DNA of 64,000 bases from Cryomorphaceae bacterium BACL29 MAG-121220-bin8 (lineage in GTDB: Bacteria > Bacteroidota > Bacteroidia > Flavobacteriales > Flavobacteriaceae). The position numbers and the translations under genes are program-made. Shown here piece after piece: positions 24,181 to 63,396 of the stretch. The stretch lies in contig CAJIYP010000003.1 in NCBI GenBank assembly GCA_905181705.1, positions 434,001 to 498,000 of the forward strand, given 5' to 3'. Below the pieces are notes generated by a model. That model made no database searches and had not been told where the DNA came from. It worked only from the letters and a program-made list of their open reading frames with translations. The number at the start of each line of letters is the position of its first letter. Positions within the stretch are counted from its first letter, which is position 1.

Positions 24181-24270
24181 ATCGATTTTTAGTTAAGCTA
24201 AAATTATACAAGCTTTCATAAATAAAATTAAAATTTCTATTTTTTGTATTTATAGTTGAATATGAATGCC

Positions 24271-25026: not shown

Positions 25027-25099
25027 AGTTCTAAAGTATTTATGTTATTTTAATATAATTAAAAATTTAGACCAAACATAAAATAATGTCTTTAAAAAT

Positions 25100-26530: not shown

Positions 26531-26632
26531 TTTTTAATAATATAGATTTTTAAACTTAGTTAAAATAAAAAATACAGACTAATGAAAATAAATTATTTTT
26601 ATAAATAATGTCGTAAATTGTTATAATATTTG

Positions 26633-27349
26633 ATGAAAAGAATTTTTATAATATTATTGATTTCTATTATTTCTCAAAACCTTATTTATTCTCAATCTTT
26701 AGAAAATAAAAATGTTTTAGTTGTTTGGGGAGGATATAAACCACATCAACCTAAACTGTTTGCTAAAAATGTAATAAACTGGTTAAAAAAAGAAAAGGCA
26801 AATGTTCAAGAATCTAATAATTTAAATATTTATTCAAATTATGATTCTTTGATAAAGTTTGATTTAATAATACAATCTGTAACAATGATGAATCTTTCCT
26901 CCAAACAAGGAAAAAATTTGACAAATGCTGTAAAAAATGGAGTAGGTATTGCAGGTTCTCATGGGGGTTTAGCCGATTCATTTAGAAATAATACTGCTTA
27001 CCAATTTATGATTGGCGGACAATTTGTAGCACACCCCGGAGGAAAAGTTAATTTCAAAGTTGAAATGAATAAAAACAAATTCACAAAAGGGCTTAAAAGT
27101 TTTAATATTTTTAGTGAACAATATTATCTGCACTACGACCCAAATATTGAAATATTGGCTACTACTAAATTTAACGGAAATACTTATCCATGGATAAATG
27201 ATGTTGTAATGCCTGTAGCTTGGAAAAAAACGTATGGAAAAGGAAAGGTTTTTTACATTTCAATCGGACACGATCCAAATGAATTCATTAAACATCCTGA
27301 GGGTTGGAAACTATTAACCAGAGGGTTTGAATGGGCTAGTAAAAACTAA
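26633..27349 (+). CDS. ThuA domain-containing secreted protein
   Basis: A 238-residue protein with a signal peptide (MKRIFIILLISIISQ... to YSQS) and a ThuA/glutamine-amidotransferase-like fold: VLVVWGGYKPHQPK, then AGSHGGLADSFRN and a late ISIGHDPNEF. ThuA is linked to trehalose/trehalulose utilisation and to keto-sugar metabolism. The start is the ATG at 26633; the TTG three bases upstream is unnecessary. It is divergent from the Gfo gene, sharing a short AT-rich promoter region, and its end overlaps the pseudouridine-synthase gene by 4 bases. Confidence 0.85.
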   Translation: MKRIFIILLISIISQNLIYSQSLENKNVLVVWGGYKPHQPKLFAKNVINWLKKEKANVQESNNLNIYSNYDSLIKFDLIIQSVTMMNLSSKQGKNLTNAVKNGVGIAGSHGGLADSFRNNTAYQFMIGGQFVAHPGGKVNFKVEMNKNKFTKGLKSFNIFSEQYYLHYDPNIEILATTKFNGNTYPWINDVVMPVAWKKTYGKGKVFYISIGHDPNEFIKHPEGWKLLTRGFEWASKN

Positions 27350-45690: not shown

Positions 45691-45699
45691 ATTTATGAA

Positions 45700-46323
45700 T
45701 TAATAATTAATAATTTTTTTTCCGTGATAATGTTTTGATTTAATTTGATTATGGAGTTCATTAAAATTTTCAAAAGTAATTCCGCCGGCACAAATAATTT
45801 CAAAACTATCAGGTGCTAAATCTAGCATTTTTTTTAGAGTTTCTATAGAATCTTTTGCAAATTGCTGACCACCAGATGTTAACACTCCATTAATTTTTTT
45901 GTTTTTAATCAATAATGATAAAGAATCTATTACCGAATTAGTAGAATCAATTGCTTTATGGATTATAACATTTAAAGGTTTTGCGAACTTAGTCAACAAA
46001 TCTATTTGCTCTATATTTAGATGTGAATTCTTGTTTAGACAACCCAAAACAACTCCATCAACACCTAATTCTTTACAAAATATAATAGATTTCAACATTA
46101 ATCTAATTTCCTCCTCAGAGTAAATAAACGAAGGGTGCTTTGGCCTTATCATTACTCTAATTGGAATATTTAATTTAGAAAAAACTTTACTTATTAGTTT
46201 TTTTGATGGTGTCAATCCATCTAAATCTAATCTTGAACATAATTCAATTCTATTCGCACCATTTTTCTCGGCATTAATTGCGTCCTCAAGCGAATCAACA
46301 CACACTTCTTTTAAGATTTGCAT
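45700..46323 (-). CDS. cutC: CutC-family protein
   Basis: A 207-residue TIM-barrel protein with LKEVCVDSLEDAINAEKNGANR and RIELCSRLDLDGLTPS. An IRVMIRPKHPSFIYSEEEI strand and VLTSGGQQFA are also family features. CutC was once linked to copper homeostasis; its enzyme activity is not settled. Here it lies 12 bases from a NagB fusion and 9 from a peptide transporter, a sugar-use setting. It is somewhat shorter than many copies (about 240). Confidence 0.9.
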   Translation of the reverse strand: MQILKEVCVDSLEDAINAEKNGANRIELCSRLDLDGLTPSKKLISKVFSKLNIPIRVMIRPKHPSFIYSEEEIRLMLKSIIFCKELGVDGVVLGCLNKNSHLNIEQIDLLTKFAKPLNVIIHKAIDSTNSVIDSLSLLIKNKKINGVLTSGGQQFAKDSIETLKKMLDLAPDSFEIICAGGITFENFNELHNQIKSKHYHGKKIINY

Positions 46324-46335
46324 TCAGAAATATAC

Positions 46336-48237
46336 CTAAAAGTGATGTCTTTTGAAAGTCTCCATAGCAGAATAGTCTGACATACCTAGGTCATGGAAGG
46401 TTTTAGCAATTGCTCTGTTTCTATCCTCAGTTCTAACCCAAAACTCTCTGTTGTCATCTCCTTGAAACATAACATTATCTTTTTGAGTTTGATGATAGAA
46501 AATAGCTTTTCTTTTTCTTAAAACTTGATTTGGACTCATAGGAACTGACATATCTATTTCATGAACTTCCCACTCGTGCCAAGCTCCTCTGTATAACCAA
46601 ACCCAACAATCTTTCATGAAACTTTTTTCCTTTATTAATTCTAAAACATTAAAAAGAATGTCTAAACAAACTTTATGAGTCCCATGTGGATCAGCAAGAT
46701 CTCCAGCAGCATAAATCTGATGAGGTTTAATACTGGAAATTATATCAGTAATTATTTTTTGATCAGCACTTGCAGGGGGCATTTTTTTAACAGTACCTGT
46801 TTCGTAAAATGGTAGCTTTAAAAAATGAACGTTAGCATCTGGAATTCCTACAAATCTTGTTGCAGCCAATGACTCTTTTTCTCTTATTAATGATGCTATT
46901 TTTCTAATCTCTTTATTAGCTAATATTTCATTATTCCCTTTAAGAATACTAATTAAATCTTTTGAACTTTTATTAGAATCTAAATTAATTTCTGAACAAA
47001 CCTCAAGATATTTTAATACATCTGAATTATTTACAGCAATATTTCCAGATGTTTGATATGCAACATGAACCTCATGACCTTGATTGACTAGTCTAGAGAA
47101 AGTTCCTCCCATCGAAATTACATCGTCGTCTGGATGAGGACTAAAAATAAGTATTCTTTTTTTAGATGGCTGAGCCCTTTCTGGTCTATAACTATCGTCT
47201 GCATTTGGTTTGCCACCTGGCCATCCAGTTATAGTTCTATCTATCTTATTAAAAACCTCTATATTGATATCATAAGGAGATTGATAAATTAATAATTCTG
47301 ATAAATTATTTTCATTATAATCTGACTCGGTTAAGTTTAGGATAGATTTTTTTGTTTTTTGACAAAGCCAAACTAACGCTTTAGCCTTAAGCTCTTTCGT
47401 CCAATTACAAGAACCTACTTTCCATGGTGTTTTGATTCTTGTCAAATCAGAAGCTGAAGTATTATCTAAAACAAATGTTACATTTTTATGTTTTTGTAAA
47501 AAGCTTGCTGGAAGATTAGAATCAACTTCACCTTCAATAGCATCTTTAATTACTTTTGATTTGTTTTGACCCCAAGCTAAAAGAACTATTCTTTTTGATT
47601 TTCTAATGGTATTAATACCCATTGTAATTGCTGTTGTTGGAACATTTTCTATTCCATAAAAAGCTTTTCTAGCATCATTTCTGGTAATATAGTTTAAGTG
47701 TACGATTCGAGTTAATGAATTATAATTTGATCCAGGTTCATTAAATCCAATATGTCCCGTTCTTCCAATACCTAAAAGCTGAAAATCAATTCCTCCAAGA
47801 CTTGCGATGATTTTATCATATTTCTTACAATGATTGTTTACTTCATCTATTTCTAAATTCCCGTCTGGAATATAAATATTTTCTGAATTAATATCCACAT
47901 GAGAAAATAAGTGGACATTCATAAAATGATGATAACTCTGAGAATCTGAGCTATTCATCGGAAAATACTCATCCAAATTGAAAGAAATTACATTTGAAAA
48001 ACTAAGCCCATCTTCTTTGTGCATCCTTACAAGCTCTTGATAAACTGAAATTGGAGAAGAACCAGTAGCCAAACCCAATACACAAGACTTTTTTTCTTTT
48101 TGTTTTTTTTTAATTAAAATTGCTATTTCATTTGCAACCATTTTAGAAGCTTCTTTTGATTCATCAAAAATCACACTATGTATTTTTTCAAATCTAGTTT
48201 GCTCTAAAGTTCCAGGCGATTTATAATCTATTATCAT
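46336..48237 (-). CDS. nagB: glucosamine-6-phosphate deaminase fused to PIG-L deacetylase-like domain
   Basis: Residues 1-280 are NagB: ATGSSPISVYQEL, NLDEYF (D89) and GIGRTGHIGFNEPGS with H162, turning glucosamine-6-phosphate into fructose-6-phosphate. Residues about 357-600 are a PIG-L/LmbE zinc domain with FSPHPDDDVISMGGTF (H368, D370, D371). Bacteroidota often carry this two-domain NagB; the second domain may remove acetyl or other groups from amino sugars. It overlaps the sodium symporter by 4 bases. This is the clearest marker of amino-sugar breakdown in the window. Confidence 0.93.
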   Translation of the reverse strand: MIIDYKSPGTLEQTRFEKIHSVIFDESKEASKMVANEIAILIKKKQKEKKSCVLGLATGSSPISVYQELVRMHKEDGLSFSNVISFNLDEYFPMNSSDSQSYHHFMNVHLFSHVDINSENIYIPDGNLEIDEVNNHCKKYDKIIASLGGIDFQLLGIGRTGHIGFNEPGSNYNSLTRIVHLNYITRNDARKAFYGIENVPTTAITMGINTIRKSKRIVLLAWGQNKSKVIKDAIEGEVDSNLPASFLQKHKNVTFVLDNTSASDLTRIKTPWKVGSCNWTKELKAKALVWLCQKTKKSILNLTESDYNENNLSELLIYQSPYDINIEVFNKIDRTITGWPGGKPNADDSYRPERAQPSKKRILIFSPHPDDDVISMGGTFSRLVNQGHEVHVAYQTSGNIAVNNSDVLKYLEVCSEINLDSNKSSKDLISILKGNNEILANKEIRKIASLIREKESLAATRFVGIPDANVHFLKLPFYETGTVKKMPPASADQKIITDIISSIKPHQIYAAGDLADPHGTHKVCLDILFNVLELIKEKSFMKDCWVWLYRGAWHEWEVHEIDMSVPMSPNQVLRKRKAIFYHQTQKDNVMFQGDDNREFWVRTEDRNRAIAKTFHDLGMSDYSAMETFKRHHF

Positions 48238-50042
48238 TTTAGCTTTTTTAATTTATCCCAATTATATTTAAGAAATAATGCAAATGAAATCCCAATTATT
48301 AAAAAGGATATTCCACTATTTAAGTCTCCGTAAATAAAATGTCCTGTTGAAAATAAAAAAGAATAAATAGCAAAACTCCCTAACAACATACATATAATTC
48401 CTAAAGGAACAGACCACTTATTATCAGTCTTATCATTAAAGGAAATATTATTCTTTAAAGCTTCTTCTTTTATTTTTTTCCAACCTGGCCCACCTGGATT
48501 CGTTTTTTTACAAAAATTAATTAAATCTTCAAAAGAATCTGGCTTTGTTAAAAAAGTAACTATTATCCAAATAAGTGTGGTGAATAATACAACCGCTGGG
48601 AATTTATAATACGAAGGGTAAAATCCTAAATCAGAGAATAATATTTCACCAAGAGAGGTGAAATTTAAAAGAATGGAGATAAATCCAGAAACAAACATAG
48701 CTGAAATTTCACTCCAAGCGTTGATTCTCCACCAAAACCATCTCAAGATAAAAATCAATCCAGTACCTGCTCCAAACATTAGAATAACATCAAACAATTG
48801 AAGAGCATTTGTTAACAATAATGCAAAAACTGCACTTAGACAAAATAAAGTTACAGTTGAAATTCTACCAACATTAACAAGCTGTTTTTCAGTGGCATTT
48901 TTATTTACTTGTTGCTTATAAAAATCATTAACGATATACGAAGAACCCCAATTAAGATGTGTAGATATAGTTGACATATATGCTGCTACAAGCGATGCCA
49001 CAACCAAACCTAATAATCCGGATGGAAGCATAGTCATCATAGCGGGATAAGCTAGGTCGTGTCCAAGTTTATCTTCAGAAACATTAGGAAAGGCTTCTTG
49101 AATGCTCGCTAGATCTGGAAACACTATTAATGAAGCTAATGCTACAATTATCCATGGCCATGGTCTAAGAGCATAATGCATTACGTTAAAGAAAAATGTA
49201 GCACCAATTGCGTGATTTTCATTCTTAGCAGCTAGCATTCGCTGAGCAATGTATCCTCCACCTCCAGGTTCCGCTCCAGGATACCAAGAACTCCACCATT
49301 GAACGGCAAGAGGAACTATTAATAATGGAACATAAATATTAGGATCATCAAGACTTGGAGTCATAGATAATATTTCAGGTGGAGTTTTAGCAATTAAATT
49401 TGCCATTCCACCAACTTCAGGAAGATTGACTAAATAATAAGCTGCACCTATGGAACCAGCCATTGCAGCAAAAAACAATATAAAATCTGTGTACACAACT
49501 CCTCTAAAACCTCCAACAGTACTAAATACAACAGTGATGGATCCAGCATATAAAATTGTTTCCATTGGTGAAAGACCTAACATTATCTCACCAATTTTAA
49601 TTGCAGCGAGAGTTACTCCTGACATTGCCATAACATTAAAAATAACTCCTAAGTATATAGCTCTAAATCCTCTTAAAAACTTACCTCCCCAACCACTGTA
49701 TCTTAATTCGTAAAACTCCATATCAGTGGCTACATTAGATCTTCTCCACAACTTGGCGTAAACAAAAACTGTCAACAAACCTGTTAAAAGAAATGCCCAC
49801 CAAACCCAGTTACCAGCAACGCCTTTTGTTCTGACTATATCAGTAACTAAATTTGGTGTGTCAGTAGAGAAAGTTGTGGCTACCATTGAAATACCTAATA
49901 ACCACCATGGCATATTGCGGCCAGAAAGAAAATATTCTGAAGAACTTGAGGAGGATTTTTTGGAAACTAAAAATCCTATAATTAAAGTTATTGAAAAAAA
50001 ACTTGCTATGATGCTGTAGTCTAATGTAGATAATTCAATCAT
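48234..50042 (-). CDS. sodium:solute symporter (SSS family)
   Basis: A 602-residue transporter with about 14 helices. It has the SSS pattern: an N-terminal IIASFFSITLIIGFLV, the early SSEYFLSGRNMPWWLLG, and a later GTGLIFILRWFWWR with a polar stretch KPDSFEDLINFCKK. SSS proteins import sugars, amino acids or other solutes with Na+. Its place next to NagB suggests a sugar or amino sugar. Two helices plus a hydrophilic C-terminal loop around residue 515 add length to the usual 500-550. Confidence 0.88.
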   Translation of the reverse strand: MIELSTLDYSIIASFFSITLIIGFLVSKKSSSSSSEYFLSGRNMPWWLLGISMVATTFSTDTPNLVTDIVRTKGVAGNWVWWAFLLTGLLTVFVYAKLWRRSNVATDMEFYELRYSGWGGKFLRGFRAIYLGVIFNVMAMSGVTLAAIKIGEIMLGLSPMETILYAGSITVVFSTVGGFRGVVYTDFILFFAAMAGSIGAAYYLVNLPEVGGMANLIAKTPPEILSMTPSLDDPNIYVPLLIVPLAVQWWSSWYPGAEPGGGGYIAQRMLAAKNENHAIGATFFFNVMHYALRPWPWIIVALASLIVFPDLASIQEAFPNVSEDKLGHDLAYPAMMTMLPSGLLGLVVASLVAAYMSTISTHLNWGSSYIVNDFYKQQVNKNATEKQLVNVGRISTVTLFCLSAVFALLLTNALQLFDVILMFGAGTGLIFILRWFWWRINAWSEISAMFVSGFISILLNFTSLGEILFSDLGFYPSYYKFPAVVLFTTLIWIIVTFLTKPDSFEDLINFCKKTNPGGPGWKKIKEEALKNNISFNDKTDNKWSVPLGIICMLLGSFAIYSFLFSTGHFIYGDLNSGISFLIIGISFALFLKYNWDKLKKLK

Positions 50043-50057
50043 GGTAACATTAATTTA

Positions 50058-50086
50058 CAAAATTAAACTGTCAACTTACAAATTTA
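50058..50086 (-). promoter_or_regulatory. candidate TAnnTTTG elements upstream of the symporter
   Basis: On the minus strand TAATTTTG (50058-50065) and TAAATTTG (50079-50086) both fit the -7 consensus, 16 and 37 bases before the symporter start. Spacing of -33 elements is not ideal for either, so which is used is uncertain. They would let the symporter to thioredoxin part be expressed apart from the sulfatase. Confidence 0.35.
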
Positions 50087-50129
50087 ATAAATAAATAGCT
50101 CAAGCATGTTATAATGTAGATGAAGAACT

Positions 50130-50975
50130 TCAAGAAAGATATTTATGTAACCCAATTATATCATTTTTAGAAGTTAAGTCTAGAACGTCATCATTCATGA
50201 GCAGAGCTTTAATATTTTTTTTATTGTCCACAATCATTTTTTTTAAAACATCAGGTATTTCTTTCTCATTTCTTGTATTATTAACTCTACAATTCTTGAA
50301 AAAAGTATAACATATTTCTCCATCAAATTTAAAAAGATTCATACTCACTCTAATCTTTCCTAATGAGTCTTTAGATTTATTAACCATTTGTTTGTCAGGC
50401 TTTTCTATTATATCAATCAAAAAATTCTTGTTATCGATTTTAGCAATTGCAAAAGAAGAAATTCTTTCCTTAGAAAATTTCAAACCCTGTTTATCATAAG
50501 CAATAAAAGCATTTTTGGATAAAGTAGATTTGATTTCTTTTAATGAATTAACAGAATATAAATTATCTCCATTACAAACACAAAAAGATTGATATTTTAG
50601 GATAGGGAATTGTTCCATTGTTTGAAATACCGCATCTGCAGTACCCAAAGGTTTTTTGCGATTAATAGGCAAGTACTGTACAGAAAAATAAATATTACAA
50701 TTATTTAAATCCATTTTCAAAATATCATTGAAATTATTTCTAAAAAAAGATGCATCTTCAGATGAAACGATGTAAATGTTTTTAAAACCAGAATTAATTA
50801 TATTTAAAATTAAATAGCTAATAAAAGGTTTTGATTCACGTCCAAACTCAATCAAAACTTTACTTTTTGAGTTAGCGGACTCAATTTGTTCTTTTGATAA
50901 TTCGTTCTCAAAACTGGGCTGTTTCATTCTAGAGGATGCCCCGGCCGCCATAATAATAATAGAATCTGTCATCAT
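50130..50975 (-). CDS. nucleotidyltransferase family protein (sugar-nucleotide type)
   Basis: 281 residues of NTP-transferase fold. SIIIMAAGASSRMK is the N-terminal nucleotide loop. A VLIEFG element, an NGDNLYS metal site and IIEKPDKQ follow in order. It resembles sugar-phosphate nucleotidyltransferases that make NDP-sugars. A long insert after the first loop (residues 20-40) is unusual. It sits 21 bases from the sulfatase and 87 bases upstream of the symporter; the reason for an activating enzyme in a breakdown cluster is unclear. Confidence 0.8.
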   Translation of the reverse strand: MMTDSIIIMAAGASSRMKQPSFENELSKEQIESANSKSKVLIEFGRESKPFISYLILNIINSGFKNIYIVSSEDASFFRNNFNDILKMDLNNCNIYFSVQYLPINRKKPLGTADAVFQTMEQFPILKYQSFCVCNGDNLYSVNSLKEIKSTLSKNAFIAYDKQGLKFSKERISSFAIAKIDNKNFLIDIIEKPDKQMVNKSKDSLGKIRVSMNLFKFDGEICYTFFKNCRVNNTRNEKEIPDVLKKMIVDNKKNIKALLMNDDVLDLTSKNDIIGLHKYLS

Positions 50976-50996: not shown

Positions 50997-52514
50997 TTAT
51001 TCTAATGAAGGTATTATGAAACTCTTTATGTAAGGAGTAGTGTGAGCTTCTTTTAGATAGTTTTCCAATTCAATAACTATTTTTGGAAAATTCTGAGAGA
51101 CATCATTTAGTTCTTTAAGATCATTAGAAAGATCATATAGTTCAAGATTAGATTTTCCTTTAAAAAGATTCGTTTTTAAACCTTTCCACTTTCCCATTCT
51201 AATTGCTTGTAATCCTCCACTTGCTGGGTACTCCCAATACAAATATTTATGTTTTTTTTGTTTCTCCCCTTTTAGTTCAGGATAAAAACTAATACCATCT
51301 GTTTGAATTGGCGACTCTATACTAGCCACATCAAGAGCTGTTTCAAAAAAATCATAAAATGCAGAAATATGATTAGAGGAGGTTCCAGGTTCAATTTCAT
51401 TTGGCCAACTTGCAATCATGGGAACCCTTATTCCTCCCTCATTCACACTTCCTTTCATCGTATTTCTTGAATTAACAAAAATTCCTGTACTGTTAAAAAA
51501 TTCAGAATCCACCTGTGGAACATGAGAAGGTCCATTGTCACTAGTAAAAATTATAAGAGTGTTTTCATACTGTCCAATTTCCTTAAGCTTGGCAATAATT
51601 TCTCCAACTTGCTCGTCTAAATAAGAAATCATAGCAGCATAAGTAGCCCTTGGTGTCCTGTTGGGGTAATATGATCTTCCAACATAAGGTTCCTCATCAC
51701 CAAACTTTTCATTGTAATATTTAACCCAATCCTCGGGGGCTTGTAAAGGTAAATGTGGAAGAGGCGAAGCATAATAAAGAAAAAATGCATTCTTTTTATT
51801 TTGCTCAATAAAACTCAGAGCCTCATTGTGCATTAAAGTAGGAGCATAATCGCTTTGATTATATTTCTTATAGGATTCTTGATTATAAGGGTCTTTATCA
51901 CCAAGAGTTTCATTCTTATTAACAATGTAATTATTTAGAATATGTCTGTTTTCATTTCTCCATAAGTGAGTTGGGTATAGGGTGTGTGCTTGTCTTTGAC
52001 AATTATAACCATAGAAAAAATCAAAGCCTTTTTTATTTGGAACACTACTAGTCAAAGGAGCTCCTAATCCCCATTTCCCAACCATTCCTGTTTTATAACC
52101 ATTATCTTTCAAAACTTTAGCAACTGTTAAAATAGAATCCAACAATGGTCTTTGACCTTCTAAATTTGGATCATCAAACATCGCTTGAAAACTCCATACA
52201 TCACCTCTTTCACTCCATTCACCATTTGCTCTAATATGAGTATTTCCCTGATGCATTCCTGTCATTAGCACACTCCTTGCTGGGGCACAAACTGGAGCAC
52301 CAGAATAATGATTAGTAAAAAGCATTCCTGTTTTAGATAGATTATCGATGTTAGGTGTTTCAATATGTTTTTGTCCAAAAACTCCGAGCTCACCATAACC
52401 TAAATCATCAGCTAAAATGTAAACTATATTGGGTTTTACTTTTTTATTTTGTTCGCAACCAAAAAGAACTAAGGCTATAAAAAAAACAAGGAAATAATTT
52501 AATAAAATTTTCAT
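50997..52514 (-). CDS. sulfatase (arylsulfatase-type) lipoprotein
   Basis: A 505-residue sulfatase with lipoprotein signal LVLFGC (Cys20). The active-site core C-A-P-A-R (C76 in GAPVCAPARSVLMTG) is converted to formylglycine; metal ligands are in ILADDLGYGELG and FTSDNGPSH. It removes sulfate esters, most likely from marine polysaccharides. Being a lipoprotein it should face the periplasm or the surface. The Cys-type site needs a formylglycine-generating enzyme, found at 54938-56041. It starts the seven-gene run ending at the thioredoxin. Confidence 0.93.
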   Translation of the reverse strand: MKILLNYFLVFFIALVLFGCEQNKKVKPNIVYILADDLGYGELGVFGQKHIETPNIDNLSKTGMLFTNHYSGAPVCAPARSVLMTGMHQGNTHIRANGEWSERGDVWSFQAMFDDPNLEGQRPLLDSILTVAKVLKDNGYKTGMVGKWGLGAPLTSSVPNKKGFDFFYGYNCQRQAHTLYPTHLWRNENRHILNNYIVNKNETLGDKDPYNQESYKKYNQSDYAPTLMHNEALSFIEQNKKNAFFLYYASPLPHLPLQAPEDWVKYYNEKFGDEEPYVGRSYYPNRTPRATYAAMISYLDEQVGEIIAKLKEIGQYENTLIIFTSDNGPSHVPQVDSEFFNSTGIFVNSRNTMKGSVNEGGIRVPMIASWPNEIEPGTSSNHISAFYDFFETALDVASIESPIQTDGISFYPELKGEKQKKHKYLYWEYPASGGLQAIRMGKWKGLKTNLFKGKSNLELYDLSNDLKELNDVSQNFPKIVIELENYLKEAHTTPYIKSFIIPSLE

Positions 52515-52616: not shown

Positions 52617-53942
52617 TTGAAAAATAAAGTGGAAGGTTTCTCTAAATTATCCAAACTAGAAAAAATAAATTGGATTAATAAGACTTATTTTCATAACAAC
52701 CATAATTCATATAATTTTCTTAAACAATACTGGACTAGTGACAAAGAATTACAGAAAATTCATGATGAGTTTTCTGAAAATACGATCTCAAATTTTCTTT
52801 TACCACTAGGCATAGCTCCTAATTTTTTAATTGATGGTGAGGACTATACAATTCCTATGGCAATCGAGGAAAGTTCAGTGGTTGCAGCTGCCTGTAAAGC
52901 AGCAAAATTTTGGAGGAAAAGAGGTGGCTTTAAAACAAAAATAATCAACTTCAAAAAATCGGGACAAGTACATTTTATATTCAATGGTAATGTAGAAAAA
53001 TTAAATATTTTTTTTTTAAAAATAAAAAAACTACTAATTAAAGATTGTCAAAAAATTAGTCATAATATGACTAACAGAGGAGGTGGAATTTTGGATATAG
53101 AAATATTAGATAAAACCAATGATATAGAAAATTATTTTCAGCTAAATGCCTTTTTTGACACTGTAGATTCTATGGGTGCTAACTTTATTAATTCTTGCTT
53201 AGAACAATTTGCTAAAACAATTAAAAGAGAAGCTTTAGAATTTGAAAATTTTTCTGTAAGTGAAAAGAACATTGAGATTATAATGAGTATTCTTTCCAAT
53301 TATGTTCCAGAATGCTTAGTAAGAGCTGAGGTAAGCTGTCCTATTGAAGATTTAGATGTAGAATCTGAGTTAAACCCTAATCAATTTGCTGAAAAATTTA
53401 AACAAGCAATCGAAATTGCAAAAACTCAAAAAGAAAGAGCGGTAACTCATAACAAAGGTATTATGAATGGAATAGATTCTGTTATTATTGCAACTGGAAA
53501 TGATTTTAGAGCAATTGAAGCAGGTGTACATGCTTATGCATCTAAAAAAGGATATTATACCAGTCTATCTGATGTAAGTATTGAAAACGGAGTATTTAAA
53601 TTTTGGACTGAATTACCAATTTCACTTGGAACTGTTGGGGGAATAACAAGTATTCATCCTCTAGTAAAATGGTCTCTGAGATTACTTAAAAATCCAACAG
53701 GAAAAGATTTAATGAAAATTGTAGCTGTAGCAGGACTTGCCCAAAATTTTGGGGCTCTATCTTCCTTAATCTCATCTGGAATTCAAAAAGGACATATGAA
53801 AATGCATTTAATTAATATTTTAAATACATTAAATTCAAGTGAAGATGAAAAAAATAAATTAATTCATTATTTTAAATCGAACGTAGTTTCTTTTAGTTCT
53901 GTTGAAAAAGAACTATTAAATATTAGGAACAATGAATTATAA
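52617..53942 (+). CDS. mvaA: hydroxymethylglutaryl-CoA reductase, class II type
   Basis: A 441-residue enzyme from TTG 52617 (VEGFSKLS starts 4 residues in; a GTG at 52542 adds 25 residues unlike the family). HMG-CoA reductase reduces HMG-CoA to mevalonate, the committed step. The core has PMAIEESSVVAAACKAAKFW, the FDTVDSMGANFIN motif, THNKGIMNGIDSV (catalytic Lys) and GTVGGITSIHPLVKW. It is the class II, bacterial or degradative-like type, and in flavobacteria it feeds synthesis. It overlaps the GYDIA kinase by 11 bases. Confidence 0.92.
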   Translation: MKNKVEGFSKLSKLEKINWINKTYFHNNHNSYNFLKQYWTSDKELQKIHDEFSENTISNFLLPLGIAPNFLIDGEDYTIPMAIEESSVVAAACKAAKFWRKRGGFKTKIINFKKSGQVHFIFNGNVEKLNIFFLKIKKLLIKDCQKISHNMTNRGGGILDIEILDKTNDIENYFQLNAFFDTVDSMGANFINSCLEQFAKTIKREALEFENFSVSEKNIEIIMSILSNYVPECLVRAEVSCPIEDLDVESELNPNQFAEKFKQAIEIAKTQKERAVTHNKGIMNGIDSVIIATGNDFRAIEAGVHAYASKKGYYTSLSDVSIENGVFKFWTELPISLGTVGGITSIHPLVKWSLRLLKNPTGKDLMKIVAVAGLAQNFGALSSLISSGIQKGHMKMHLINILNTLNSSEDEKNKLIHYFKSNVVSFSSVEKELLNIRNNEL

Positions 53943-54834
53943 AACCAATAGTTATGGAAAAATATTAATTACATCAGAGTATGCAGTTCTACAAGGAGCT
54001 TTAGCACTGGCTATTCCAACTAAATTCAAACAGTCACTATCTTACATAAAAAACAACTCAAACTCATTAATTTGGAAAAGTTATAATTCAGAAAATAAAG
54101 TATGGTTTGATTGCGAATTTCTTTTGCCAAATCTTAAATTAATTCAAAATAGTGATAACAAAATAGGAGAAGATCTTCTCTCTATTTTATTTTCTGCAAA
54201 AAAATTAAATCCTTATTTTTTAAATATAGACTTTGGTGGAGTTGTAAGTACTGAACTTGATTTTCCAAATAACTGGGGACTAGGAAGTTCTTCTACCTTA
54301 ATTAATAATATTGCTAATTGGGCTAATATTAATCCTTTTGAATTACTATGGACTAATTTTAATGGAAGCGGTTATGATATAGCTTGCGCAAATAGTGATT
54401 CGCCTATTTTATATAAACTTGAAAACAATAAACCTATTGTTGATAAGGTATCTTTTGACCCAACATATTCAAATAATTTATTTTTTATTCATTTAAATAA
54501 AAAACAAAATACAAATGACGAAATAAAAAAATTTAATACTAAAAAATTATCTCAAAAACTTATTTTTAAATTTTCTGATTTAACTAGAAAGTTTCTAAAT
54601 TCTAAAAACATTATAGATTTTCAGATTTGTATAAAAGAACACGAATCAATTCTTTCAAAAGAACTTAACACAGTTTCTATTAAAAAAAAATTATTTGATG
54701 ATTATAAGGGAGAAATTAAAAGTTTAGGTGCTTGGGGAGGAGATTTTATCCTAGCAGCTGGTCCTATTGACTCTCCCTCATATTTTCAGAAAAAAGGATT
54801 TAAAACAATTATTCCTTTCAAAAAAATGTTTTAA
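53932..54834 (+). CDS. GYDIA-family GHMP kinase
   Basis: A 300-residue small-molecule kinase of the GHMP superfamily with the diagnostic GYDIA segment in FNGSGYDIACANSDSP, a YGKILITSEYAVLQGALALA N-terminus and the WGLGSSSTLINNIA phosphate loop. The family is seen in Bacteroidota and its substrate is not settled. It overlaps the HMG-CoA reductase gene, and this window has mevalonate kinase and decarboxylase but no recognised phosphomevalonate kinase; it may fill that role. That is inference. Confidence 0.85.
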   Translation: MNYKTNSYGKILITSEYAVLQGALALAIPTKFKQSLSYIKNNSNSLIWKSYNSENKVWFDCEFLLPNLKLIQNSDNKIGEDLLSILFSAKKLNPYFLNIDFGGVVSTELDFPNNWGLGSSSTLINNIANWANINPFELLWTNFNGSGYDIACANSDSPILYKLENNKPIVDKVSFDPTYSNNLFFIHLNKKQNTNDEIKKFNTKKLSQKLIFKFSDLTRKFLNSKNIIDFQICIKEHESILSKELNTVSIKKKLFDDYKGEIKSLGAWGGDFILAAGPIDSPSYFQKKGFKTIIPFKKMF

Positions 54835-56196: not shown

Positions 56197-56448
56197 ATGG
56201 ATAAAAAACTTGCGGAAAAATATTGGAAAGAAAACATAAAATATCTTATCATTCTTTTGTCTATTTGGTTTACAGTTTCTTTTGGATTTGGAATTCTTTT
56301 GATAGAGGAATTAAATCAATTTAAAATTGGTGGGTTTAAATTAGGCTTTTGGTTTGCTCAACAAGGCTCCATTTACGTATTTGTAATATTGATATTTATT
56401 TATATCATTTTAATGAACAGATTAGATAAAAAATATAATTTAAAATAA
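56197..56448 (+). CDS. DUF4212 small subunit of a sodium/carboxylate symporter
   Basis: An 83-residue membrane protein with two helices (about 15-35 and 55-75) and the conserved YWKENIKYLIILLSIWF and FGFGILLIEELNQFKIGGFKLGFWF. DUF4212 subunits accompany an SSS-family transporter directly downstream (6 bases), as with the acetate/pyruvate systems of marine bacteria. It starts the six-gene plus-strand operon. Confidence 0.92.
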   Translation: MDKKLAEKYWKENIKYLIILLSIWFTVSFGFGILLIEELNQFKIGGFKLGFWFAQQGSIYVFVILIFIYIILMNRLDKKYNLK

Positions 56449-56454
56449 TCATTT

Positions 56455-58128
56455 ATGACTCTTCAACTTTGGATATGGCTAATGATTGGATTAACTTTTT
56501 CTCTTTATATTGGAATTGCTATTTGGTCTAAAGCAGGCTCAACTAAAGAATTTTATGTAGCCGGTTCTGGTGTTTCGCCCTTAGCAAACGGAATGGCTAC
56601 AGCCGCAGATTGGATGTCAGCAGCATCATTTATTTCAATGGCTGGTTTAATTTCCTTTATTGGTTATGATGGATCAGTTTACTTGATGGGTTGGACCGGA
56701 GGATATGTTTTACTTGCCCTTCTATTAGCACCTTATTTGAGAAAATTCGGAAAATTCACTGTTCCTGATTTTATAGGTGACAGATATTATTCAGACACTG
56801 CTAGAGTTGTAGCTGTATTTTGTGCATTAATTATCTCGTTTACCTACGTTGCTGGCCAAATGAGGGGAGTTGGACTGGTTTTTTCAAGATACTTAGAGGT
56901 CGATATAAACACAGGTGTTGTTATTGGAATGGCTATTGTTTTATTTTATGCTGTTTTAGGTGGAATGAAAGGAATAACTTACACTCAAGTCGCTCAATAT
57001 TGCGTATTGATTTTTGCTTTTATGGTTCCAGCTATTTTTATTTCTATACAAATGACTGGAAACCCTATCCCACAATTAGGGTTTGGATCTCAAGGATCAG
57101 ACGGAATTTATCTTTTAGACAAATTGGACGGTCTTAGTAGAGATTTAGGTTTTCATGAGTATACGACAGGGGAAAAATCAAAGCTTGATGTATTTTTTAT
57201 TACTGCTGCTTTAATGGTAGGAACGGCAGGACTTCCTCATGTTATTGTCAGGTTTTTCACTGTTAAAAAAGTAAGTGATGCAAGAAAGTCTGCTGGGTGG
57301 GCTCTACTATTCATAGCAATTTTATATACTACTGCCCCTGCAATTGCAGTTTTTGCTAGAACAAATCTAATCGAAACAGTAAGTGAGAAAAAATATGACG
57401 ATATGCCTGTTTGGTTTGAAAACTGGGAAAAAACTGGTCTTTTAACTTTTACTGATAAAAATAAAGACGGAGTTATTCAATATGTTGCAGATCCACAAAT
57501 AAACGAATTAACTATTGATAGAGATATAATGGTAATGGCTAACCCTGAAATTGCTGAGCTACCAAACTGGGTAATAGCGTTACTCGCAGCGGGTGCTTTA
57601 GCGGCAGCCTTGTCAACTGCAGCTGGACTTTTACTTGTCATATCCTCCTCAATATCCCATGATCTAATCAAAAAAATTATAAAACCCGATGTTAGTGAAA
57701 AAGGAGAACTAATTGCGGCTAGAGTTTCTGCCTTTTTTGCCGTTTTGTTAGCTGGTTATTTTGGAATTAATCCACCTGGATTTGTAGCGGCAGTAGTAGC
57801 TCTAGCGTTTGGTCTTGCGGCAGCTTCTTTTTTTCCAGCTATAGTAATGGGTATTTTTTATAAAAGAATGAATAAAGAAGGTGCGATTTCAGGGATGGTA
57901 ACCGGACTACTATTAATGCTTTTTTATATGACAAAATTTAAGTTTGGTTGGTTTGGAGGAGGAACTGAAGCAGATTGGTGGTTTGGAATATCTCCAGAGG
58001 GCTTTGGAACATTTGCTATGTTAGTTAATTTTGTTGTCTCTTTATCTGTTTGTCATTTAAATGCAAAACCACCTCAAGAAATACAGGAATTAGTAGAAAA
58101 TATTAGAATTCCAACAATTGAAAATTAA
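56455..58128 (+). CDS. sodium:solute symporter, cation-acetate/VC_2705-type large subunit
   Basis: A 557-residue SSS protein of about 13 helices starting [20 protein letters not shown] loop near residue 340 holds an EF-hand-like Asp-rich turn ([10 protein letters not shown]), a feature of this subfamily, and FVAGSGVSP marks the N-terminal part. Such transporters import acetate or related monocarboxylates with Na+. It depends on the preceding small subunit. The next gene overlaps by 1 base. Confidence 0.88.
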
Positions 58129-58886
58129 TGAAAAGCCTAAAATTAATTCTTTTCTTTTTTATCCTTAGTAATTCAAATGCCCAAGATCTTAATCAATATG
58201 AAAAAGAAGTCTTTGTATTTGAAAAAGAAACGCTGAATTACAGAATTTTAAAACCTTTAAATTATAACCCAAATAAACAATATCCTGTTCATTTGTTTTT
58301 ACACGGAGCTGGTGAAAGAGGAAATGATAATGTTTCTCAATTAGTACATGGAGGAAAACTTTTTTTAAAAAAAGAGAATAGAGAACAATATAACTCATGG
58401 GTCATATTTCCACAAGCTCCTAAAAACGATTGGTGGGGATACAAGGATCCGTATAAGTTTGATTATAACGTAAAAGAATCTAAAGCTATGGGTTTAGTTG
58501 TAAAGTTAATGGACGATTTTATTGAAAGAAAAGATGTTAATTCTAATAAAGTCTATGTAAGTGGACTGTCCATGGGAGGTATGGGAACTTTCGTGATTTT
58601 AAATTTGAGACCTGAAATGTTTGCAGCTGCAACTCCAATTTGTGGAGATGGAGATCCTAACTTAGTTGGTAACTATTCAAAAAAAGTTCCTGTTTGGATT
58701 TTTCACGGATCTGATGATATTACTGTTAGTCCAAAAAAATCTTTAAAAATGGCTAAAGCTATAATCGAAAACGGAGGAAGTCCAAAAATTACTTTCTATG
58801 AAAATACTGATCATGTGGGAGGCTGGGAAAATGCTTTTGCAGAAAAAAAATTTTTAAAATGGATTCACTCTAAAACTAAAAAATAA
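58128..58886 (+). CDS. secreted alpha/beta-hydrolase (carboxylesterase/phospholipase-like)
   Basis: A 252-residue protein with a signal peptide (LKLILFFFILSNSNAQD). The alpha/beta fold has the oxyanion VHLFLHGAGERG, nucleophile S148 in SGLSMGGMG, acid D196 or D197 in FHGSDDITV and H229 in TDHVGGW. Such esterases remove acyl groups from sugars or other esters. Its start codon overlaps the symporter stop. The fine substrate is unknown; it matches the predicted prolyl-oligopeptidase/dienelactone family in size. Confidence 0.85.
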   Translation: MKSLKLILFFFILSNSNAQDLNQYEKEVFVFEKETLNYRILKPLNYNPNKQYPVHLFLHGAGERGNDNVSQLVHGGKLFLKKENREQYNSWVIFPQAPKNDWWGYKDPYKFDYNVKESKAMGLVVKLMDDFIERKDVNSNKVYVSGLSMGGMGTFVILNLRPEMFAAATPICGDGDPNLVGNYSKKVPVWIFHGSDDITVSPKKSLKMAKAIIENGGSPKITFYENTDHVGGWENAFAEKKFLKWIHSKTKK

Positions 58887-58890
58887 AAAA

Positions 58891-59601
58891 ATGAATTTAA
58901 AAAAAATAATTACTATCATACTAATAATTTTTGCGATGTCAAATAATTCAAATGCTCAAGAAGTCGATATCCAAGGAGGAGGAACGCTAACCGATTGGGC
59001 TCACTTAAAAAAATATGAACAAAGTAACTCTAAACTTAAAAATATAAACGACCCGAATCGAGTTGTTTTTATGGGAAATTCAATAACAGAGGGGTGGTCT
59101 AATTTTGATGAAGATTTTTTTATAAATAATCCATTTATAAATAGAGGAATTAGTGGACAAACCACTCCACAAATGTTAATTAGATTTAGACCAGATGTGG
59201 TCAATTTAAATCCTAAAGCTGTTGTAATTTTAGCTGGAATAAATGATATAGCTGAAAATACTGGACCTGTAACTTTAGAAAATATAGCAGAAAACATCAT
59301 CTCAATGGCTGAAATTGCTAAAGCAAATGGTATTAAAGTATTAATTTGTACAACTCTTCCAGCAATTGATTTCCCTTGGTCACCTGGAATGGAACCTGGT
59401 CCAAAAGTAATTAAATTAAACTCTATTTTAAAAGCCTATTGTGATTCAAATGACATTACCTATGTAGATTATTTTTCAGCAATGTCTGATGAAAAAGGAG
59501 GGTTAAAAGTTCCTGAGTATACAACAGCCGATGATTTAGTACATCCTAATTTAGCTGGTTATAAAGTGATGGAGAAAATCATTCTTAAAGCACTTAAATA
59601 A
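58891..59601 (+). CDS. secreted SGNH/GDSL esterase
   Basis: A 236-residue SGNH hydrolase with signal peptide. Block I is FMGNSITEGW (Ser64), block II GISGQTTPQML, block III LAGINDIAEN, and block V DDLVHPN (Asp215, His218). Members of this family are acetylxylan or other deacetylases, lipases and thioesterases. Coupled with the previous esterase, it suggests removal of O-acetyl groups outside the cell. Spacing is 4 bases to the previous gene. Confidence 0.88.
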   Translation: MNLKKIITIILIIFAMSNNSNAQEVDIQGGGTLTDWAHLKKYEQSNSKLKNINDPNRVVFMGNSITEGWSNFDEDFFINNPFINRGISGQTTPQMLIRFRPDVVNLNPKAVVILAGINDIAENTGPVTLENIAENIISMAEIAKANGIKVLICTTLPAIDFPWSPGMEPGPKVIKLNSILKAYCDSNDITYVDYFSAMSDEKGGLKVPEYTTADDLVHPNLAGYKVMEKIILKALK

Positions 59602-59620
59602 TTTCATTAACTTTAGATTA

Positions 59621-61930
59621 ATGAAAAAAGATATTCGCAATAATCTTTTCTATTTTCTAATACCATTAATTGGGATTTTAGTCTTTAAGTACTTTTCAAC
59701 AAAACCTTCTGTTGATCAAATTTTAGTTAATTATAATACAATCCCAAACAAAGATTTCAAAGAAACTAACACCACGTTTCAAGCAGTTAATTTCAATTTC
59801 GACGTTAAACCAATATTGTCTGATAAATGCTACACTTGTCACGGCCCTGATGATAAAGCAAGAAAAGCTAATTTAAGACTAGACGTTCAAGAAGGTTTTT
59901 ATTCAGCACTTGAAGACAATCCAAATCATTTTGTAATTAATCAGAACAATCCCAATGAAAGTGAGATTTTAAAAAGAATTGATAGTGAAAATTTACAATA
60001 TTTAATGCCTCCACCCGAATCTAATTTAAAATTATCAGAAAGAGAAAAACAAATTTTAAAAAAGTGGGTTCTACAGGGTGGAAAATGGGAGCCTCATTGG
60101 GCGTATACCAAACCACAATTACCAGAAATTCCAGAAGTAAATATTGAAAATTGGACATCTAATGAAATAGATTTTTTTGTAGCCAACAAATTAGAATCTA
60201 AAGGGATGTCTCCGTCAAAAATTGAAGAAAAAGAAATATTAATTAGAAGAGCTTATTTTGATATAACTGGCCTTCCACCTTCTTTAGATGATATTGATAA
60301 ATTTGTTTCTGACACTAGTGAAGACGCTTATGAGCATGTTATTGACAATTTATTAGAATCTAAATCTTACGGAGAAAGAATGACTGCAATTTGGATGGAT
60401 TTATCTAGATACGGAGATAGTCATGGCTATCAAGATGATCAAGAACGAATCATGTGGCCATGGAGAGATTGGGTAATTCACGCTTATAATTCAAATATGC
60501 CATATGACAAGTTTATTACATGGCAAATGGCAGGAGACATGCTTCCAAACGCTACAAAAGAACAAATTTTAGCTTCTGGCTTCAACAGAAATCATAAAAT
60601 TACTCAAGAAGGTGGTGTTGTGCCTGAGGAATATAGAGTTGAATACGTTGCAGATCGAACGGTTACTTCTGCAAAAATCATGATGGGATTAACAGTCGAA
60701 TGTGCAAGATGTCATACTCACAAATATGATCCAATTTCTCACGATGAATTTTTTAGTTTTTATAGTTTTTTTAATAACGTTGATGAGGATGGTTTAATTG
60801 TTTATGGTGACACAGCACCAAAACCAAACTTAACTATTAGCGCAAAAGATATTAAAAAGGATTTACCTTTTGTAAACCTACCAGATAGTATCAATAACGT
60901 CACACTTATGGTAATGAAAGAAACTGAAAACTTAAGAAACACTTATGTTTTAAACAGAGGAAGTTATGACTCTCCAACTAGACTCGTTAAACCCAGCACT
61001 CCGGAAGTTGTATTAAAATTTGATGAGCAAAAATATTCATCCGACAGAGTAGGATTATCAAAATGGTTTTTTGACAAAGACAATCCTCTGACATCAAGAG
61101 TTACAGTCAATAGATTATGGCAACAATTTTTTGGAATTGGTATAGTAGCTACACCTGATGACTTTGGAAGTCAAGGTAATAAACCATTTAATCCTGAATT
61201 ATTAGATTGGTTAGCCTATACATTTCAAAATAAAGACAACTGGGATACTAAAAAGTTTATTAAAAGAATAGTAATGTCCTCTACTTACAAACAGTCTAGT
61301 AAAGTTAAGAAAGAAAACCGTTTAAGGGATTCTGATAATACATACCTAGCTAATTATCCAAGGCAAAAACTTTCAGCTGAAATGATTAGAGATAATGCTC
61401 TCGCTACAAGCGGAATGCTTGTTGAAAAAATTGGTGGTCCTAGTGTTAAACCAATGCAACCACCAAACCTATGGAATGAAGTTACAGGCGGTGGTGGTGG
61501 AAGTTTAGCATTCTATGTTCCAGATACAGGAGACAACTTATTTAGAAGAAGTTTATATACTTTTTGGAAAAGAACAGTTCCTCCTCCCTCTATGATGATA
61601 TTTGATGCTCCAACTAGAGATTTTTGTGTTCCAGTAAGGCAAAAAACCAGTACTCCATTACAATCTTTAGCATTAATGAATGATCCTCAGTATCAACTTG
61701 CTGCAGAAAATTTATCAGAATCAATTTTCAAAGAAAAAATCTCAATTGACGAAAAAATTTTAAAACTTTATAGAACTGTTACTGGAAGAACACCAATTGA
61801 AATTGAATTAATTAAGCTAAAAGAATTTTTTATCGAAATTAAAAAATTAAATGATATTGAAGACCAAAAAGCTTTCAATTCTTTAACAGTATTAGTTTAT
61901 AACTTAGATGAAACCACCCAAAAAAGTTAA
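59621..61930 (+). CDS. PSCyt1/DUF1549/DUF1553 protein with two c-type heme motifs
   Basis: 769 residues. One N-terminal membrane helix (about 10-24) precedes a cytochrome-c-like PSCyt1 domain with CYTCH (C70, C73, H74). DUF1549 follows, including a second CARCH (C361, C364, H365) in VECARCHTHKYDP. DUF1553 is the C-terminal half with KWFFDKDNPLTSRVTVNRLW and a final GRTP-type helix. It is shorter than the 900-1000-residue Planctomycete forms. The protein family is common in PVC bacteria and marine Bacteroidota; the role is unproven, possibly extracellular oxidation. It is 19 bases from the SGNH gene. Confidence 0.9.
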   Translation: MKKDIRNNLFYFLIPLIGILVFKYFSTKPSVDQILVNYNTIPNKDFKETNTTFQAVNFNFDVKPILSDKCYTCHGPDDKARKANLRLDVQEGFYSALEDNPNHFVINQNNPNESEILKRIDSENLQYLMPPPESNLKLSEREKQILKKWVLQGGKWEPHWAYTKPQLPEIPEVNIENWTSNEIDFFVANKLESKGMSPSKIEEKEILIRRAYFDITGLPPSLDDIDKFVSDTSEDAYEHVIDNLLESKSYGERMTAIWMDLSRYGDSHGYQDDQERIMWPWRDWVIHAYNSNMPYDKFITWQMAGDMLPNATKEQILASGFNRNHKITQEGGVVPEEYRVEYVADRTVTSAKIMMGLTVECARCHTHKYDPISHDEFFSFYSFFNNVDEDGLIVYGDTAPKPNLTISAKDIKKDLPFVNLPDSINNVTLMVMKETENLRNTYVLNRGSYDSPTRLVKPSTPEVVLKFDEQKYSSDRVGLSKWFFDKDNPLTSRVTVNRLWQQFFGIGIVATPDDFGSQGNKPFNPELLDWLAYTFQNKDNWDTKKFIKRIVMSSTYKQSSKVKKENRLRDSDNTYLANYPRQKLSAEMIRDNALATSGMLVEKIGGPSVKPMQPPNLWNEVTGGGGGSLAFYVPDTGDNLFRRSLYTFWKRTVPPPSMMIFDAPTRDFCVPVRQKTSTPLQSLALMNDPQYQLAAENLSESIFKEKISIDEKILKLYRTVTGRTPIEIELIKLKEFFIEIKKLNDIEDQKAFNSLTVLVYNLDETTQKS

Positions 61931-61932
61931 AA

Positions 61933-63396
61933 ATGGAAGAAATACATAAACACTTTCTAAACAACAACAGACGAAACTTTTTAAAAAAAGCTGGTTTAGG
62001 TATTGGTGGTTTAGCACTAGGCTCTATGCTAAATCCATTTGGAACAGGCAATGATACTGATCCTTTTTCATCATTAAAAAATGATTTAAACCTTCCTCAT
62101 TTTGCCCCAAAAGCAAAAAGAATTATTTATTTATTTCAAAGTGGAGGGCCATCGCAGTTAGACCTATTTGACTATAAACCAAAATTAAATCAATTTAGGG
62201 GAAGTGATTTACCAAAATCTGTCAGAGATGGTCAAAGATTAACAGGAATGACCTCAGGTCAAAATAATTTTCCATTGGTTGGAAGTAATTATAATTTTAA
62301 AAAATACGGAGAATCTAGAGCGTGGGTTAGTGAATTAATGCCCTACGTTGGTAAAATTGCTGATGAGTTATGTTTTGTGAAATCTATGCATACAGAAGCA
62401 ATAAATCATGATCCTGCGATAACTTTTTTTCAGACTGGATCACAACAACCAGGTAGACCTAGTATGGGTTCGTGGATGAGCTATGGTTTAGGTAGTCTAA
62501 ATAATAATATGCCATCATTTGTGGTTCTTCTTTCTAATGGTACAGGAAGACCTAAAGGTCAGCCTCTTTATTCTAGACTTTGGGGAAACGGGTTCCTAAG
62601 TTCTCTACACCAAGGGGTTCAATTTAGGGCAGCTAAAGATCCTGTTTTATATTTAAAAAATCCAGATGGTGTGACTGCTCAAGAAAGAAGAAAAATGCTA
62701 GATTATTTAGCAGAACTAAATCACCAACAGGAAGCTTCATTTGGGGATCCAGAAATTAGTAGTAGAATAGCTCAATATGAAATGGCTTATAGAATGCAGA
62801 CTTCTGTCCCTGAAACAATGGATATTTCTGATGAGCCTGACCATATTCTTCAAATGTATGGGCCTAATGCTCAGAAGCCAGGAACCTATGCTGCGAATTG
62901 TATTCAGGCTAGAAGATTAATTGAGAAAGATGTGAGATTTGTTCAGCTTTATCATATGGGATGGGATCAACATGAAAACCTACCTAACCAAATCAAGGGA
63001 CAATCAAGTGATGTTGATCAACCGACAGCTGCACTTATTATGGATCTAAAACAGAGAGGATTACTTGAAGATACACTCGTAGTATGGGGAGGAGAGTTTG
63101 GTAGAACTAACTATTGCCAGGGTACTTTATCAGACACTAATTATGGTAGAGACCACCACCCAAGATCATTTACAATTTTTATGGCAGGAGCAGGTATTAA
63201 GCCAGGATTTAGCTATGGAGAGACTGATGATTTAGGATATAATATAGTTAAAAATCCTGTTCATGTTCATGATTTACAAGCAACAATATTAAATCAATTT
63301 GGAGTTGATCATACAAGAATGGTATACAAACATCAAGGAAGAAGATTCAGATTAACTGATGTTTCAGGAAATGTAATTAAAGACTTACTTGCCTAA
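61933..63396 (+). CDS. DUF1501 protein with Tat signal
   Basis: 487 residues. The N-terminus NRRNFLKKAGLGIGGLALGS is a twin-arginine signal, so the protein is exported folded. The DUF1501 body has FQSGGPSQLDLFDYKPKL, DELCFVKSMHTEAINHDPA and VVWGGEFGRTNY, with the metal-binding pattern of the alkaline-phosphatase fold. DUF1501 genes nearly always follow a DUF1549/DUF1553 gene, as here (2 bases), and act as a pair. Its biochemical activity is not established. It ends the operon. Confidence 0.92.
   Translation: MEEIHKHFLNNNRRNFLKKAGLGIGGLALGSMLNPFGTGNDTDPFSSLKNDLNLPHFAPKAKRIIYLFQSGGPSQLDLFDYKPKLNQFRGSDLPKSVRDGQRLTGMTSGQNNFPLVGSNYNFKKYGESRAWVSELMPYVGKIADELCFVKSMHTEAINHDPAITFFQTGSQQPGRPSMGSWMSYGLGSLNNNMPSFVVLLSNGTGRPKGQPLYSRLWGNGFLSSLHQGVQFRAAKDPVLYLKNPDGVTAQERRKMLDYLAELNHQQEASFGDPEISSRIAQYEMAYRMQTSVPETMDISDEPDHILQMYGPNAQKPGTYAANCIQARRLIEKDVRFVQLYHMGWDQHENLPNQIKGQSSDVDQPTAALIMDLKQRGLLEDTLVVWGGEFGRTNYCQGTLSDTNYGRDHHPRSFTIFMAGAGIKPGFSYGETDDLGYNIVKNPVHVHDLQATILNQFGVDHTRMVYKHQGRRFRLTDVSGNVIKDLLA

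Follow-up and report, generated by a model that had tools for sequence, protein, structure and literature searches.

Results

Six adjacent genes in a small flavobacterial genome

The window analysed here is a stretch of 64,000 nucleotides from Cryomorphaceae bacterium BACL29 MAG-121220-bin8 (contig CAJIYP010000003.1, positions 434,001 to 498,000), whose genome measures 1.84 Mb and is 87% complete. At 56197–63396, six co-directional open reading frames (ORFs) on the + strand encode the two subunits of a symporter, two exported esterases, a DUF1553 protein and a DUF1501 protein (Table 1). A preliminary description had reported the same genes, place, strand and gaps, which the ORF list and the recomputed gaps (6, −1, 4, 19 and 2 bases) confirm; the gene families that it named are borne out by Pfam and NCBIfam profile searches. 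It had also joined the six in one coupled scheme. The comparison with other genomes presented below argues instead that the block probably consists of two units turned neighbours, an acetate-type symporter with esterases, and one half of an envelope cytochrome module that is linked to glycans.

Table 1. Coordinates of the six genes and of the features within them (positions in the window)
Feature	Position	Strand	Basis
Symporter small subunit, DUF4212, TIGR03647	56197..56448	+	Pfam, NCBIfam
Symporter large subunit, SSF, VC_2705 family TIGR03648	56455..58128	+	Pfam, NCBIfam (867 bits)
Exported alpha/beta esterase (Peptidase_S9, DLH)	58128..58886	+	Pfam; signal peptide by eye
Exported SGNH esterase (Lipase_GDSL_2)	58891..59601	+	Pfam; signal peptide by eye
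Seam between the two proposed units, 19 bases	59602..59620	+	Gap comparison across relatives
Membrane-anchored di-haem-motif protein PSCyt1-DUF1549-DUF1553	59621..61930	+	Pfam, motifs
Hydrophobic N-terminal segment of the DUF1553 protein, residues 9–27	59645..59701	+	
First CxxCH, PSCyt1 domain, residues 70–74	59828..59842	+	In 35/40 aligned homologues
Second CxxCH, DUF1549 domain, residues 361–365	60701..60715	+	In 39/40 aligned homologues
Tat-type exported DUF1501 protein, predicted sulfatase-like fold, without C/S-x-P-x-R motif	61933..63396	+	
Twin-arginine motif RRNFLKK of the DUF1501 protein	61969..61989	+	Sequence, Tat model

Both symporter subunits pass their NCBIfam cut-offs (TIGR03647 and TIGR03648), and the large subunit misses those of the ActP models (186 of 750, 163 of 850 and 146 of 1099 bits). 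The nearest solved relative of the alpha/beta esterase is the esterase 3doh (E 1e-37), and that of the SGNH esterase is the GDSL-like lipase 3p94 (E 3e-76). The signal peptides of both esterases were read by eye from their N-termini.

The DUF1553 protein, encoded by the only DUF1553 gene of its genome, carries PSCyt1, PSCyt2/DUF1549 and PSD1/DUF1553 domains, all over the Pfam cut-off. The two haem motifs described earlier are both present and kept in most homologues, and the membrane placement is consistent with a single hydrophobic N-terminal segment (Table 1). The structure model (predicted local distance difference test, pLDDT, 84; predicted template modelling score, pTM, 0.85) had no match in a fold search of the PDB (best E 3.9), leaving DUF1549-DUF1553 without a solved relative by fold. 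In a profile search solely the PSCyt1 part was matched, to FoxE (E 3e-6). The DUF1501 protein scores 525 bits against a Pfam cut-off of 27. Its export by the twin-arginine translocation (Tat) pathway, as previously proposed, agrees with the Tat signal model TIGR01409 (20.2 bits, cut-off 16.7) and with its RRNFLKK motif.

Conservation of the block and variability of its seam

Within the genus, a DUF1553 match was found in 17 of the 21 other genomes, which together with the window's own make 18 loci. All six genes stand in the window's order in 12 of them; the remaining six are cut by contig ends, and their order agrees as far as it is readable. The three joints among the symporter and esterase genes range from −38 to 9 bases (13–14 readable loci each), and that between DUF1553 and DUF1501 from −26 to 6, both −26 values being due to an alternative start. 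The joint between the SGNH and DUF1553 genes measures 19 bases in three loci, 56–218 in eight and 812–911 in three. A DUF1080-type gene is inserted there in 4 of 15 readable loci, namely the three with 812–911 bases and L033 (one member of this gene cluster was checked by Pfam). In 1 of the 18 loci, some of which hold cut genes, the motif TANNTTTG, which we take to be the Bacteroidota promoter consensus, occurs at most 160 bases upstream of the called DUF1553 start.

The flanks are also kept in the genus: a sulfatase, an HMG-CoA reductase, a neighbour of 300 residues and an FGE-type gene on the left (the last is the exception, being absent in three loci), and PHB-depolymerase-like, GFO/IDH/MocA, TIM barrel and FGE-type genes on the right. 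Synteny within the genus is therefore not specific to the six genes. Two more distant loci, L089 (MED-G118) and L203 (genus g173, genome of 1.4 Mb), also keep the six. There, FGE, TIM barrel, MocA and PHB-depolymerase-like genes and a further gene come after DUF1501, closely spaced and on its strand (L089:10001–16974, L203:9216–16235), unlike in the window's genus, where these genes face DUF1501. Because the six are kept together despite the turned downstream genes, and because the SGNH–DUF1553 joint varies, the block is a real directon in two parts, four genes in front and two at the rear.

Chance packing in a small genome, by which intergenic DNA was lost and six genes without common function were brought together, would fit the genome sizes (1.1–1.9 Mb), the synteny of the whole block and the varying seam. 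This explanation is improbable, as every readable locus has very short joints within the front four and within the rear two, and as the six remain together in L089 and L203 though the genes after DUF1501 were turned round.

The symporter and the esterases

In other genera, the symporter was examined at 18 loci (17 genomes), where it stands apart from DUF1553. An acetyl-CoA synthetase cluster, one member of which was checked by Pfam, lies within five genes of the symporter in 14 of the 18, so that acetate is a fair guess for its putative substrate. The window's genome encodes its acetyl-CoA synthetase on another contig. Within the front four, a coupling of esterases to symporter is plausible: once exported, the esterases would release acyl groups outside the cytoplasm, and the Na+ symporter would import them. 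This much of the earlier coupled scheme stands, the symporter and the two esterases forming a tight unit. The general tie of DUF1553/DUF1501 to the symporter or to the SGNH esterase does not, as shown next.

The DUF1553-DUF1501 pair belongs to a five-gene module elsewhere

Scanning named genomes yielded 79 loci, the majority from Bacteroidota, with some from Verrucomicrobiota, Planctomycetota and others. Of these, 77 have a called DUF1501 ORF, and DUF1553 stands immediately before it in 74. Together with same-family loci, and leaving out two duplicates, L089, L203 and the window's genus, 135 distinct DUF1501 loci were available, of which 23 form the clade nearest to the window's protein (73–80% identity) and 112 are others. 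Ranked by identity, this clade stands a step above the remaining loci.

Near the pair, no SGNH gene and no alpha/beta esterase gene was found in any of the 135 loci, the symporter was found in two (L225, L235), and acetyl-CoA synthetase in two (L226, L235). The preliminary description had proposed a general link of DUF1553/DUF1501 to symporter and esterases, to be checked by gene order: the link holds inside the window's lineage and is mostly refuted outside it. The constant neighbours are different ones. A PSCyt1 cytochrome is near the pair in 23/23 nearest-clade loci and 81/112 others, and an NHL protein in 18/23 and 43/112. The full order of the module is DUF1553, DUF1501, NHL, Fn3-type and DUF2231/PSCyt1 cytochrome. 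In G260 (L226) it follows SusC, SusD and an FG-GAP-type gene in one row, with domains assigned by Pfam on members from the window's genus or L226. The five genes are not adjacent in the window, which holds just the DUF1553-DUF1501 pair.

These counts bear on the proposal that all six genes serve one pathway, in which the esterases release acetate, the symporter imports it and DUF1553/DUF1501 handle or oxidise the deacylated remainder. It can draw on the six genes being together in the genus, L089 and L203, on 4-base overlaps at several joints, on the symporter adjoining acetyl-CoA synthetase elsewhere, and on L225, L226 and L235, where one or other of these genes lies near the module. It is nevertheless unlikely: the flanking genes are also kept, SGNH (0/135) and symporter (2/135) are near the pair hardly or not at all elsewhere, the symporter genes of L235 are on the opposite strand, the seam before DUF1553 is variable, and the window's genome has its acetyl-CoA synthetase gene on a separate contig.

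The nearest clade often lies among N-glycan genes

In the nearest clade, from which the window's genus, L089 and L203 were left out, the module often recurs beside genes for N-glycan breakdown. Glycoside hydrolase family 92 (GH92) is encoded in the fetched stretch of 12/23 loci (8 of 16 genera), compared with 3/112 others (L064, L223 and L237). The same contrast is seen for glycosylasparaginase-type genes (6/23 and 0/112), GH18 (7/23 and 1/112), GHL10 (9/23 and 3/112) and GH123 (4/23 and 0/112). Pfam confirmed example proteins in L056, L057, L206 and L213. Tallies of GH20 and of the Fn3-type protein were not used as evidence, as they are inflated by Fn3_assoc/CHB_HEX domains, which occur in GH20 proteins, in the PSCyt1 cytochrome and in the Fn3-type protein alike. 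A tree built before most loci were added groups L056, L057, L065 and L089 with the window. The link of DUF1553/DUF1501 to the front four is thus peculiar to one lineage, and the glycoprotein-glycan context of the nearest relatives is the better functional lead.

Dispersal of the module in the window's genome

In the window's own genome, members of the module stand at three sites. A second PSCyt1 protein has the make-up of the module cytochrome: DUF2231 (below cut-off), PSCyt1 and Fn3_assoc. Its gene is on another contig, behind a glycosylasparaginase and before SusC/SusD. A sulfatase, a histidine kinase and a LytTR gene lie upstream; the downstream genes encode SusC, SusD and an FG-GAP/ASPIC protein (SusC and SusD were identified by Pfam on the relative L193). 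The asparaginase matches the solved glycosylasparaginase 3ljq with E 2e-116. A full cytochrome gene was found in 12 of the 16 same-genus genomes searched, and the asparaginase directly precedes it in all 12.

Among the loci compared, the four best matches of this cytochrome (L164, L057, L056, L065) stand beside the closest DUF1501 proteins. Its neighbours LytTR, histidine kinase, SusC, SusD (a piece of 113 residues) and asparaginase match parts of a single N-glycan locus of G041 (loci L188, L056 and L189) at 49–63%. The third site, G000:C3:792 kb, carries an NHL homologue with 46% identity over its length, alone among unrelated genes.

The own SusC reads as two ORFs of 517 and 511 residues (L178:11340–14445), as it does in L197, and several relatives have one of 1022–1034 residues. 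The split could be a frameshift, an assembly error or decay.

Fold of the DUF1501 protein

The fold of the DUF1501 model matches a phosphonate monoester hydrolase and sulfatases (E 2e-7, probability 1.00, TM-scores around 0.3–0.4), and alignment to a sulfatase-like profile with hhalign gave 93% over the C-terminal half; by its model, the protein is thus predicted to have a sulfatase-like fold. The sulfatase motif C/S-x-P-x-R has no match in the window's DUF1501 protein, and the SDNG stretch of sulfatases aligns with GGEF. Residues H159, D345, H347, E388 and D407–H409 are conserved, and these His, Asp and Glu residues could be candidate metal ligands.

With such a fold, DUF1501 might be an active sulfatase- or phosphatase-like enzyme, and DUF1553/DUF1501 might serve sulfated glycans. 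Besides the fold and the profile match, sulfatases are encoded in the window at 50997–52514 and beside the own cytochrome, and sulfatase genes near PSCyt genes are reported in the available part of an earlier study (PMC5615132). The missing C/S-x-P-x-R motif, the replacement of SDNG by GGEF, and the rarity of sulfatase genes near the pair (1/23 clade loci, 15/112 others) make this highly improbable.

Redox clues

In L204 a GMC oxidoreductase gene is followed after 2 bases by Gluconate_2-dh3, which is followed after 10 bases by DUF1553. Similar genes are present in the window at 21755–27349: a GMC oxidoreductase, Gluconate_2-dh3, DUF1080 and MocA on the − strand, and ThuA on the + strand. The first three span 21755–25026, extending with MocA to 26530, about 35 kb from the pair; the whole looks like a periplasmic glycoside oxidation set. 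The genome has nine DUF1080 (3-keto-disaccharide hydrolase) matches in seven open frames and two Gluconate_2-dh3 matches. The haem motifs, the membrane cytochrome partner, the GMC/Gluconate_2-dh3 genes of L204 and the window's similar genes suggest a redox role of the module.

A general 3-ketoglycoside role for the pair was also considered, prompted by the DUF1080 gene at the seam of four loci and by the downstream MocA and TIM barrel genes. It was rejected as a general role, as DUF1080 is near the pair in 0/135 loci and MocA in 7/135, and is retained solely within the more specific complex model discussed below.

Other genes in the window

On the − strand at 44188–50975 are genes for a POT transporter, CutC, a glucosamine-6-phosphate isomerase fused to a PIG-L deacetylase, an SSF symporter and a nucleotidyl transferase, which looks like an amino-sugar cluster. 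The ORF at 53932–54834, provisionally labelled GHMP, has no Pfam match.

Discussion

Several observations weigh against two units with a glycan-linked rear half. L225, L226 and L235 belong to three genera (DUF1501 identity 68–69%) and have the symporter, acetyl-CoA synthetase or both near the module; the acetate cluster flanks the module in L226 (where it includes a DUF294 gene) and in L235. This proximity favours a real acetate link; it may be a second link or may have arisen by chance. The 73% line was drawn once the list had been inspected, and it places L223 (72.9%) among the others. The Fisher p of 1e-8 for GH92 is an upper measure of the strength of the enrichment and overstates independence, because the loci are related by descent. 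GH92 is absent from the fetched stretch in 8 of the 16 nearest-clade genera. In the control it was found in 1 of 18 symporter-centred windows (L084 in G044, 28% identity, overlapping the stretch of L225). GH92 has no match in the window's own genome, 87% complete, so that N-glycans need not be the substrate in this genus; there the target of the scattered module may be smaller than a whole N-glycan. As to redox, the two other GMC matches near the module amount to a piece of 47 residues (L066) and a match at 28% (L111), and with the DUF1080 and MocA counts given above the 3-keto idea draws chiefly on the window's lineage and L204.

Two units turned neighbours remain on balance the probable arrangement. 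DUF1553-DUF1501 would be part of a five-protein envelope cytochrome module, whose glycoprotein-glycan function is suggested by context. SusC/D would import a glycan or glyco-asparagine into the periplasm, where esterases, sulfatase and glycosylasparaginase would trim it. The cytochrome module might then accept electrons from periplasmic sugar oxidation, which is the least certain step, and the oxidised sugars would pass to DUF1080, MocA and TIM-barrel enzymes encoded nearby.

A more specific possibility, which we regard as rather doubtful, is that DUF1553, DUF1501, the NHL propeller, the Fn3-type protein and DUF2231/PSCyt1 form an inner-membrane complex. Together with GMC/Gluconate_2-dh3 or GFO/IDH/MocA enzymes, it would take up electrons from the periplasmic oxidation of glycans. 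Oxidation, and not plain hydrolysis, would then open the sugars of glycoproteins. If true, this would be the first function for planctomycete-specific cytochromes.

The context of DUF1553/DUF1501 provides a clue, open to testing, to a protein family that has long resisted explanation: a clade that recurs beside GH92, GH18 and glycosylasparaginase with constant partners names a substrate class and the proteins to co-purify. It also calls for caution, as a tightly packed six-gene block in a small marine genome can result from the joining of two older units. Literature searches for DUF1501 together with DUF1553, and for planctomycete cytochromes with polysaccharide utilization, found no paper within a coverage that leaves out most subscription journals and preprints.

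Among known systems, VC_2705-family systems have the same two-subunit symporter, beside acetyl-CoA synthetase; the window differs in the esterases that follow the symporter and in having acetyl-CoA synthetase on another contig. Periplasmic sugar oxidation is represented by the LacABC-type glycoside 3-dehydrogenase with DUF1080 proteins, as described in the accessible part of PMC9007349; the same gene types occur in the window and in L204, the window's own GMC set being about 35 kb from the pair. The Bacteroidota N-glycan loci of PMC10154615 contain GH18 and GH92, and the nearest-clade modules likewise lie among GH18, GH92, GH20, GH123, GHL10 and glycosylasparaginase-type genes; no cytochrome is described for those loci in the part of the paper available, and the word occurs 0 times in that paper.

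The closest likeness is to the planctomycete-specific cytochromes. In the accessible portions of two studies, PSCyt1, PSCyt2/DUF1549 and PSD1/DUF1553 genes are described in freshwater Verrucomicrobia, with their function termed unknown (PMC5615132), and PSCyt/DUF1549/DUF1553 and DUF1501 genes, which are numerous in Planctomycetota, reach a copy number of 41 per domain in R. baltica (PMC2754498). The domains there (PMC5615132; Rhodopirellula, PMC2754498) are the same, and both a neighbouring family of unknown genes and nearby sulfatase genes are reported. The window differs in that its flavobacterial genome is of marine type and has a single DUF1553 gene, which adjoins a symporter and esterases. 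The membrane cytochrome and the NHL protein that would partner it are encoded elsewhere in the genome, and its nearest clade lies among GH92 genes.

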